The notes beneath the pieces are model-generated. The model searched no databases and was not told the origin of the DNA. It saw only the letters and a list, made by a program, of their open reading frames with translations. Source: Dictyophora rubrovolvata (taxonomy: Eukaryota > Basidiomycota > Agaricomycetes > Phallales > Phallaceae). Taken from it: 64,000 nt of DNA. How positions within the stretch are numbered: the stretch's first letter is position 1; the number at the start of each line of letters is the position of its first letter. Both the position numbers and the translations under genes were made by a program. The stretch lies in contig CP114126.1 in assembly GCA_029959195.1 (NCBI GenBank), positions 62,001-126,000 on the forward strand. Direction: 5' to 3'. Positions 2,125 to 6,666 of this stretch are shown piece after piece.

Positions 2125-3235
2125 TCAGTTTTCCCAAGTTATACGATCTACTCTCCGATTGATTCCTCCGAGAAGGATTTTCCCTAATAAATCGGGATTC
2201 ATAGCTCGACCTGTATAGAGGGTTGTATCGACCATATCACGAATGTTATACTCGGTACTGAGATCATTGTCCATCTCCCTCAGTGCTTCTGTTGCCCGCG
2301 GATCAGCACCCAACTGAACGAATTGAATGCCTACTTGGGACTATGTACGCGTGTATTATTTAAGATAAGTGGAATGCATATCATCTAATAGAGAGCACTC
2401 ACTAGAGGGGCGTGTTGGGCATCTAATCTTTTGGCTGCAGTTACGATGACGCTTAGAGGATCATCGGCTTACAAAAAGGTGGGTTAAGTTTTGTCGCTGA
2501 ACCGTGAAAAGTGACGAATCCTTACTAGGTGCACCATCGGTTAATATCAAAAAGTTGACCGGTTTAGGCTTTGGTGTGGATTCTTCATATCTGGATAGAT
2601 ACTCTAAAAGCAGTTCTTCAAGTTTCTCTCCGGTCGGTGTAATTCCTTGAGGCTGCACAGAATCAAATATTTGTTCAACTTCGGCTGCGCTCTTCTCTTC
2701 AATCAGCAGGAAGAAAATGCAGTAAAAACTGTAAATATATTCTCACTCTCAGGTTTGTTCCCACCGTCCTCGAATTCAAGAAATGGATATCAAGGCCATT
2801 AGTGTCGTATTGAGCGGCTAGAGCCGCAATTCCGGCTAAAGCATATTTAGCTTCGAACCACAAAGCCCCTTCCATCGAGCTGGAATCGTCTACTACAATA
2901 ACCGTATCAAATTTTCGAAGGAGCTGAAGTTGATCTTCTCGGTCGGATGACGACACCGAGTTGTTGCGGTGCGTTCGCCTAATTGTCGTTTGAGGGCTTT
3001 GAGATTGACGTGTAGAAGAGCGATACAAATTTGGTGATGATTCACCAGAAGTCTCAATAGGTGAAGCGAGTTGCGTGCCATGATAACGCTGACTTGAGAC
3101 TGAGAGCCGACTAGGGCGTCGAGAGGGCGTCAAGGTCGTGTCACTATATATAGTATATGGGGGAGGTAGTTCGTTTTGGGTTGAGGAGAGAGGTTTCGGT
3201 CTCGATGAAGGGGTATGAGAAGGGGTATTTCCCAT
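2125..3235 (-). CDS. vWA-domain protein with a possible N-myristoylation signal
   Basis: Cytosolic von Willebrand factor A-domain protein. The first exon starts at 3235 and codes a Ser/Pro-rich disordered N-terminus, then RKFDTVIVVDDSSSM, which carries the DxSxS part of the MIDAS metal site, then a helix WFEAKYALAGIAALAAQYD and strand GLDIHFLNS. Later exons carry VNFLILTDGAPS, the TDG metal loop, and a C-terminal portion on LGADPRATEALREMDNDL that ends the Rossmann-like domain. The protein starts MGNTPS, which fits the Gly-2 and Ser-6 pattern for N-myristoylation, so membrane tethering is plausible. The family is common in basidiomycetes and its role is not known. It is divergent from CDT2 with 285 bp between starts. 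Intron ends in 2340-2460 and 2660-2750 are approximate. Confidence 0.8.
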
Positions 3236-3520
3236 TGCTTGTGTTTGAGGGAGGTAAAGGTGGAAATCAACGTGCGAAGGGGAAAATAGTGTTATTATAG
3301 GAGGATAACAAAGCGGTGTTCTCTTGAAAGTTTTGGCACTGGATTAGCATTGAGAATCACGACGCTGTAGCGGCTAGCCTGTGTAAGATGGCACGTGCAT
3401 GTACACGTACTGCGGGACCGAGTAGCGCCGAGTAATCTGCCATGGTGTCTTGTGGGCGAATGCGCCTACATATCAGCGCGTGACTATTACATAATGAACG
3501 CGTACCACGTCTTCCAACAC

Positions 3521-5573: not shown

Positions 5574-6666
5574 TCATTGTTTTTGTAGAACATTGGCTAT
5601 CCTGAGGGACACATACATACATATACTTGGTTAATAATGACAATGTTGGAAAGGCAAAAACTCTCCTTACCAGTCTAAACCTTCCTCTAGACCTTCACCT
5701 TTTATTGCGGAACATCCACGGATACTCCACTGTCGTGTCGTCTCGCCACCCGCCAATCCCAGTTCCTCGCTAATTTTGCTTGGACTTAAAGCTCCCGAAA
5801 CATCCTGTTTATTGCAGAGCACGAGTAGAGGGACTTCACGTAATTCCTCTTCGGCCAGAATTGTTAGGAGCTCTGCACGAGATGTGGACAATCGATCTTG
5901 GTCTGCTGAATCTATAACAAAAATGATGGCTGATGTTTGAGGGTAATAACAACGCCAGTAGGGTCTGAAAGCCGCAATATATTGAGCCACGCGAAATGAG
6001 CGCGAAAGCTAGAGCATCACCAACCGAATGCTTGACTGGCCTGAAAAGAAGGATGATGAGGACGTGTAGAGGGGGATTCACTTAAAAGGCAGGTTACCCC
6101 CTAAATCCCAGACTTGGAAAGAAAGGTTTTTGTACTACAGAAGCGAGAATAAGTTCGGTCATATCCTTGGTTTCAATCCCTGACTCGGCGTAAAATTCTC
6201 ACTTGAACAGTCTCCACGTTGAACCCAATTGCTAGAAAGGCAGCCATAAGGAAGGATAGACGTGTTATAACAAAGCGCTACTGACTTGGAATGGTTGATA
6301 TAACTTCACCGATCTTTGCAAAGAAGGCGAATAAGCTTTTAGCGGACCGGTTGGGATAAGGATGAAGTTACGAACTTGTAGCCGATACAAAATGGTTGTC
6401 TTCCCCGCAGCATCTCTAATACACGTTTAAGAACGTAAACAGTAATGTATAACGTTTACTGACAGGCCTGAGCAAGGGTGAGTAGAAAACGATAATGCAA
6501 TATTGAGACGCACGCACCCAGCATCAATATCCGCACATCTCGACCTAGAGATAATATTAATTAATTTTCTTTAGACAAGGTCTTCCTGCTAAATGTCTGC
6601 TAAACCTTTTCCCCATCCTGTTAGTGAAACTAATCTGTTGACGATTGAAGAGATAGTGAGACCCAT
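5574..6666 (-). CDS. ARL1: ARL1, Arf-like small GTPase of the trans-Golgi
   Basis: Small GTPase that recruits golgins and other effectors to the trans-Golgi. The model has ten exons and reads MGLTISSIVNRLVSLTGWGKG, then GRDVRILMLGLDAAGKTT (P-loop), IGEVISTIPTIGFNVETVQ (switch 1), YKNLSFQVWDLGGQ (switch 2), SSIRPYWRCYY, then VLCNKQD and GCSAIKG (guanine specificity). It ends LDWIANVLQKQ, about 180 residues, the usual length. Gly-2 fits N-myristoylation. The match to Arl1 (WRCYY, EEEELRE) is much closer than to Arf1. The exon that completes the P-loop is only 4 nt (6464-6467), between introns of 50 and 48 nt; see findings. All nine introns are short. It is head to head with TRS20 with 310 bp between starts and tail to tail with CDT2. 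Confidence 0.93.
6464..6467 (-). other. ARL1: Putative 4-nt micro-exon in ARL1
   Basis: On the minus strand the upstream exon ends ATG CTG G at 6518. A 50-nt intron (6468-6517, GTGCGT to CTCAG) is followed by the four bases GCCT, then a 48-nt intron (6416-6463, GTCAGT to TTAG), then AGATGCTGCG. Joining gives G-L-D-A-A-G-K-T, the usual Arl1 P-loop. Both flanking introns have the normal size and ends for this window. An alternative donor at 6513 would skip the four bases and give G-A-D-A-A-G-K-T in frame from one 98-nt intron. Confidence 0.65.

Follow-up and report, generated by a model that had tools for sequence, protein, structure and literature searches.

Very short exons have been described from several fungal and plant genes, and a number of these systems bear on the locus treated here. 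CYP621A P450 genes of Fusarium carry a 1-nt exon, reported for 20 orthologues (24 genes) with RNA reads from two species (PMC12940212). Like the four-base exon described below, it is ultra-short, lies between two fungal introns and mends an otherwise broken conserved motif; it was also found by protein conservation, and the gene models had missed it (PMC12940212). It differs in being a single base, in an ascomycete, with RNA support, whereas the exon in ARL1 has four bases, belongs to another gene family and was read from a single genome. In Phanerochaete chrysosporium, P450 genes contain micro-exons of which the shortest is given as 6 bp (PMC1184071), and an 8-nt case from that species is quoted in PMC12940212. 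That fungus is likewise a basidiomycete with frequent small introns (theirs 45-55 bp) and tiny coding exons, some of them in conserved motifs; the difference is that ARL1 encodes a GTPase and that its exon has 4 nt against their shortest of 6 bp (PMC1184071).

The conserved micro-exons of plants measure 1-15 nt, and RECQ3 has a 4-nt cluster (PMC8831610). These too are tiny coding exons of conserved genes and are often misannotated, but unlike the ARL1 case they come with cross-species conservation and RNA support (PMC8831610); the term 'GTPase' has 0 matches in the main text of that paper. A micro-exon of Trichoderma virens Xlr2 is a regulated switch between two proteins (PMC11121469). Xlr2 and ARL1 have in common a fungal micro-exon that can be left out, the regulated two-protein switch being described for Xlr2.

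Two further kinds of splicing resemble parts of the locus. Tandem donors of the form GYNNGY, 4 nt apart, are reported in human and mouse to be primarily noise, with a regulated minority (PMC4267661). ARL1 also has two donors 4 nt apart, in GTGCGTGCGT; by itself such a shift changes the reading frame, whereas in ARL1 it is cancelled when the 4-nt exon is skipped. Fungal stwintrons, like the ARL1 arrangement, put two adjacent intron units at one place, but no exon lies between the units, whereas in ARL1 four coding bases remain. For detection, a Ganoderma study reports that long reads do worse than short ones on very short exons (PMC11590231). PMC3990503 names micro-exons just as an option for read mapping, and PMC8042270 concerns Drosophila. 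Among the matches listed for the open-licence literature, judged by titles and the starts of abstracts, none described a micro-exon for ARL1 or for any small GTPase of a fungus. Fungal micro-exons down to 1 nt have already been published.

The window is a 64,000-nt stretch of contig CP114126.1 of the basidiomycete Dictyophora rubrovolvata. We conclude that four of its bases, GCCT, very probably (at a rough probability of 0.9) form a constitutive coding micro-exon of 4 nt, within an ARL1 gene dense in introns.

MATERIALS AND METHODS

Splice combinations. All paths from exon 2 to exon 4 of the gene with either one or two introns were enumerated. Donors could be GT or GC, acceptors had to be AG, and the minimum intron length was 35 nt.

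Protein-to-DNA alignment. A splice-aware aligner was seeded with a generic, hand-set splice consensus and given human ARL1 as query for this gene. It takes GT donors only, for the other micro-exons as well; the enumeration for ARL1 took in GC donors. Alignment score cut-offs were 150 (passed by all 38 loci), 110 (passed by 6 of 10 stretches), 200 (for micro-exon margins and controls) and 300 (for the training set and the gene count). A tyrosinase locus was left out of the counts.

Splice-site matrices. Weight matrices were built from 156 introns of the other small-GTPase genes of the genome, using alignments that scored at least 300, with duplicates and ARL1 itself removed. The training set includes some introns that were later doubted (L021, L036).

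Shuffles. The interior of the 102-nt gap was shuffled 20,000 times with dinucleotides preserved and the ends kept, both introns being required to have at least 42 nt.

Paralogue count. The count of Arf-family paralogues excludes L044, L045 and L046, which gave no alignment, and two weaker Arf matches on C9 and C2. By their motifs L044 and L046 look like G-alpha genes and L045 like a GTPase of another kind, and all three were rejected as Arf paralogues.

RESULTS

The gene lies on the minus strand of the window, from an ATG at 6666 to a stop ending at 5574, and many short introns cut it. Its 187-residue product has a Pfam Arf domain (8.5e-71, 237.4 bits); the closest PDB chain is 1moz, an ARL1 (1.7e-69), and the top six PDB chains are all ARL1, followed by ARF1. 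By this Arf-family domain, and with ARL1 as the nearest solved relative, the gene is ARL1 (Arf-like GTPase 1). Family membership suggests a role at the Golgi and N-myristoylation, and a Gly2 read in exon 1 matches the expectation for the latter. The genome has one ARL1-type gene among the Arf matches modelled, so that no spare copy is in sight. The features of the gene, with a slash at each splice boundary, are as follows.

6606..6666, minus strand: exon 1, beginning with the ATG at 6666 (MGLTISSIVNRLVSLTGWGK); read from the sequence, 3′ boundary putative
6518..6544, minus strand: exon 2, 27 nt, ending in GRDVRILML and base 1 of the P-loop Gly codon (enumeration, alignment)
6468..6517, minus strand: intron, 50 nt, GTGCGT...CTCAG (donor TGG/GTGCGT, acceptor CTCAG/G)
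6464..6467, minus strand: probable micro-exon GCCT, completing Gly (G/GC) and starting Leu (CT/A) of G-L-D-A-A-G-K-T
6416..6463, minus strand: intron, 48 nt, GTCAGT...TTAG (donor CCT/GTCAGT, acceptor TATTAG/A)
6416..6513, minus strand: competing intron, 98 nt (donor TGC/GTGCGT), product G-A-D-A-A-G-K-T
6376..6415, minus strand: exon 4, 40 nt, remainder of the P-loop (DAAGKTTILYRLQ), its first base ending the Leu codon
6313-6286, 6231-6203, 6134-6098, 6040-6025, 5964-5671 and 5601-5574 (with the stop), minus strand: further exons (alignment)

The aligner missed exon 1 because the N-terminus is poorly conserved. Among the further exons, the one at 6040-6025 has 16 nt (GCCAGTCAAGCATTCG), lies in the switch II region and scores 10.9 bits above its best alternative.

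Enumeration between exons 2 and 4 gave 218 splice combinations, 69 with a single intron and 149 with two, and 29 of them run free of stops into A-A-G-K-T-T-I-L-Y-R-L. Only one of the 218, the micro-exon model, yields R-D-V-R-I-L-M-L-G-L-D-A-A-G-K-T; one other yields G-L-D but without the preceding strand, and a 104-nt intron (6517-6414) stays in frame and keeps L-D while deleting the P-loop Gly. Queried with human ARL1 and given no hint, the aligner picked the micro-exon model. Taking a micro-exon to be an internal exon of at most 15 nt, we find these four bases flanked by AG and GT and by introns of usual size, and required both for the frame and for the conserved protein sequence. The earlier note on this DNA had placed GCCT between introns of 50 and 48 nt with normal ends and had stated that inclusion gives G-L-D-A-A-G-K-T; both statements hold, the bases lying at 6467-6464 and the product being the sole correct one in the enumeration.

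Chance would seldom supply such a filler. The pattern AG-N4-GT arose in 518 of the 20,000 shuffles, four bases that complete Gly-Leu in 8, and a Gly-Leu filler with a combined splice score at least equal to the real one in 0.

Training introns (n=156) have a median length of 58 nt, with 5th and 95th percentiles of 49 and 96.75 nt, and the shortest intron in the aligned small-GTPase loci has 42 nt. The two ARL1 introns are thus short but within the usual span, the 48-nt one just under the 5th percentile, while a length of 98 nt is just over the 95th and is reached or exceeded by 8 of the 156. The first intron has a donor at 6517 of 7.5 bits (61st percentile) and an acceptor before 6467 of 6.6 bits (75th percentile). 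Both sites of the second are weak: the donor at 6463 has 4.0 bits (14th percentile) and the acceptor before 6415 has 3.0 bits (8th percentile). A loose branch-site match is present in both introns (CTCAC, TTTAC), as in 123 of the 156 training introns; the strict motif CTRAY, found in 39 of the 156, is absent from both.

With an intron cost of 12 bits, the micro-exon model leads the best model without the exon by 4.1 bits, or by 9.8 bits when a term for intron length is included. Without the length term it stays ahead for costs of 5-16 bits and loses to the rival from 18 bits upward, a setting in which the model drops to only 6 introns in ARL1; with the length term it leads at every cost tried (5-20 bits). 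The margin of 4.1 bits is the smallest among the accepted micro-exons (no length term), because here the rival is also in frame.

Leucine is the residue expected at this place. All seven readable Arf-family paralogues (L001, L003, L004, L005, L006, L042 and L043) have a Gly-Leu P-loop. The five aligned PDB chains, every one an ARL1, also carry Leu here, as do two Arf-like loci of other collections (L040 and L041), in agreement with the near-invariance asserted in the earlier note. Its choice of the micro-exon as the main form likewise agrees with the enumeration, the unprompted alignment, the site scores, the shuffles and the 4.1- or 9.8-bit advantage. On the sequence evidence, the micro-exon form would be the predominant one, with little of the Ala form made.

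The rival donor at 6513 arises from GTGCGTGCGT. It had been proposed that this site keeps the frame through a 98-nt intron and gives G-A-D-A-A-G-K-T, all of which is correct, and that it lies 5 nt downstream of the first donor, where the actual distance is 4 nt. A GT at +4 is found in 79 of the 156 training donors and is commonplace because the donor consensus itself ends in GT; the rival donor is in this respect partly a by-product of the GTNNGT consensus. A +4 donor as strong as 6513 (4.5 bits, 16th percentile) is uncommon (5/156 introns). Four junction combinations follow from the two donors. Two of them yield all 187 residues, donor 6517 with the micro-exon (Leu) and donor 6513 without it (Ala); donor 6517 with skipping ends at a stop after 72 residues, and donor 6513 with inclusion shifts the frame and stops after 47. 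The Ala form therefore needs two coupled departures, one of which is to skip a strong near acceptor, and should be rare.

It is very unlikely that the single 98-nt intron from 6513 to 6416 is the true one, with GCCT a chance resemblance and ARL1 carrying G-A-D-A-A-G-K-T. Such an intron is in frame, saves one splice and begins with GTGCGT, and its product still scores 233.3 bits against Pfam Arf, the change from Leu to Ala costing 4.1 bits (237.4 to 233.3). The fold should tolerate Ala, since this residue stands at the matching position in human Ras (GAGGVGKS) and in the apparent G-alpha gene L044 (GAGESGKS). Against this, the filler would have to be a 0.04% coincidence (8/20,000 shuffles), the splice would have to use a donor that scores 3 bits below its neighbour 4 nt upstream, an acceptor at the 75th percentile would be passed in favour of one at the 8th, and Ala would stand where 7/7 Arf-family paralogues have Leu. 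The reading in which both forms are substantial, perhaps regulated, so that one gene makes two P-loop variants, is even harder to credit. Both forms are in frame, the 4-nt donor shift cancelling the 4-nt exon skip, but Ala requires the downstream donor together with the skipped acceptor, either of which alone gives a frameshifted product of 47 or 72 residues, and tandem donors 4 nt apart are judged primarily noise (PMC4267661). Folds of 6544-6376 and 6467-6416 were no better than those of shuffled sequences (z 0.83 and -0.15, respectively), and RNA structure was rejected as a cause of inclusion or skipping.

Least probable of all is that the locus is misspliced, through an assembly error or as a decaying gene, or that it uses some other junction such as the 104-nt intron. 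In favour stand the weak sites of the second intron and the place of the 104-nt intron among the 29 stop-free combinations; yet the 187-residue frame is full-length with an intact Arf domain, a second ARL1-type gene is absent among the Arf matches modelled, and the 104-nt intron needs an acceptor of 0.7 bits (1st percentile) and gives a product without a glycine of the nucleotide-binding motif. A stwintron of nested introns was rejected because Gly followed by Leu is obtained only if the four bases stay: removal of the whole stretch leaves G-A-D, the loss of Gly or a frameshift. A bolder proposal is that the four-base exon and the donor exactly four bases downstream form a built-in Leu/Ala switch of the P-loop, with exons of 2-9 nt recurring in the nucleotide-binding and switch regions of small GTPases. 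We regard it as highly improbable; if true, one splicing choice would swap Leu for Ala with the frame kept, switching nucleotide handling in a Golgi GTPase.

Other very short exons were found in the small-GTPase genes of the genome, with the following margins.

L012 (G000:C3, plus strand) and L013 (G000:C7, minus strand): 2-nt exon AG in each, Ras paralogues, switch I; 25.1 and 20.1 bits more than the best model lacking it, probable
L049, G000:C4, minus strand: 6-nt exon TCCCTC, Rab5-type gene; 11.9 bits, probable
L033, G000:C11, minus strand: 7-nt exon CACCCAA, Rho-type gene, switch I, coding for H-P and the beginning of T; 9.5 bits above its best alternative, probable
L043, G000:C4, plus strand: 9-nt exon (TGTTATTCG), ARL8-type gene; 18.6 bits, probable

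The Ras exons are smaller than that of ARL1 and have stronger support. Their flanking introns (69/83 nt in L012 and 81/99 nt in L013) have diverged by insertions and substitutions, and the 2-nt exon is retained in both copies. When the length term is used, 32 GTPase genes have 139 internal exons, of which 7 are of at most 9 nt (one, in L036, is disbelieved). The earlier view that exons as small as the ARL1 one are rare does not fit this genome, where they are not so rare, with probable exons of 2, 6, 7 and 9 nt.

Several candidates were discarded: L049 has a 2-nt candidate and L014 a 14-nt one, with margins of 0.6 and 0.7 bits, neither of which was believed, and a 7-nt one in L036 breaks a conserved motif. 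A 15-nt candidate in L021, in spite of 19.6 bits, has a +1 frame that points instead to a GC-donor intron. This Rho-type gene (minus strand, G000:C1) has its P-loop cut after G-K, probably by such an intron; the predicted junctions are GGCAAG/GCGTGT...AAGTAG/ACCTGC, which an aligner limited to GT donors misreads.

As a control, in 22 alignments of ubiquitin-conjugating enzymes and phosphatases, some of them poor, the support for any candidate exon of up to 10 nt never exceeded 1.9 bits among 111 aligned internal exons, the smallest clearly supported exon having 12 nt (19.7 bits). Since several of these alignments are poor, no enrichment in GTPases is claimed. Because micro-exons show up solely in conserved stretches of protein, the G motifs are favoured.

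DISCUSSION

Where fungal introns measure about 50 nt, the established view is that splice sites pair across the intron (intron definition). On this basis the micro-exon of ARL1 may be produced by intron definition from two ordinary short introns that lie four bases apart within the Gly and Leu codons of the P-loop. The two splices would be successive, since four bases leave no room for the complex at the first acceptor and the one at the next donor at the same time. The 50-nt intron would probably be removed first, having the stronger donor and acceptor; GCCT would then close an exon of 31 nt, and the donor of this exon would pair with the weak acceptor before 6415. Donor 6513 may be used as noise, and most of that use should join the near, strong acceptor, with a frameshift and a stop after 47 residues, so that the in-frame Ala form should be rare. 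As folding is no better than that of shuffled sequence, no structural control is seen.

Gene callers can easily overlook an exon of four bases in the most conserved motif of a GTPase, and an annotation pipeline would probably give the 98-nt intron with a false P-loop or else a truncated gene. The presence of several tiny exons in 32 small-GTPase genes suggests that other protein models of this genome are wrong at such places, and the same may be true of intron-dense fungi generally. The ARL1 micro-exon also offers a clean test case of how an intron-definition spliceosome deals with exons too short for both neighbouring complexes.

As regards the origin of the exon, introns at either of the two ARL1 positions, placed by hand between human references, occur in 0/7 Arf-family paralogues; in ARL2, by the same hand placement, an intron lies two bases upstream of the first position. 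The exon may stem either from two separate insertions or from the loss of a base followed by capture of a filler, as has been proposed for CYP621A (PMC12940212). A single scan of each of the viral_contigs and genome_contigs collections, queried with the ARL1 protein, yielded one Arf-like locus apiece, L040 and L041, and both match human ARF1 more closely than ARL1. The first (3001-3480 of IMGVR_UViG_3300025637_000016, 58 kb, listed as viral) is an intronless Arf-like GTPase with an intact P-loop. The second (2931-3472 of JAADDM010000085.1, filed as a gammaproteobacterial MAG) is a eukaryotic ARF1-like gene that has introns, one of them within the P-loop, and its presence on that contig is probably contamination.
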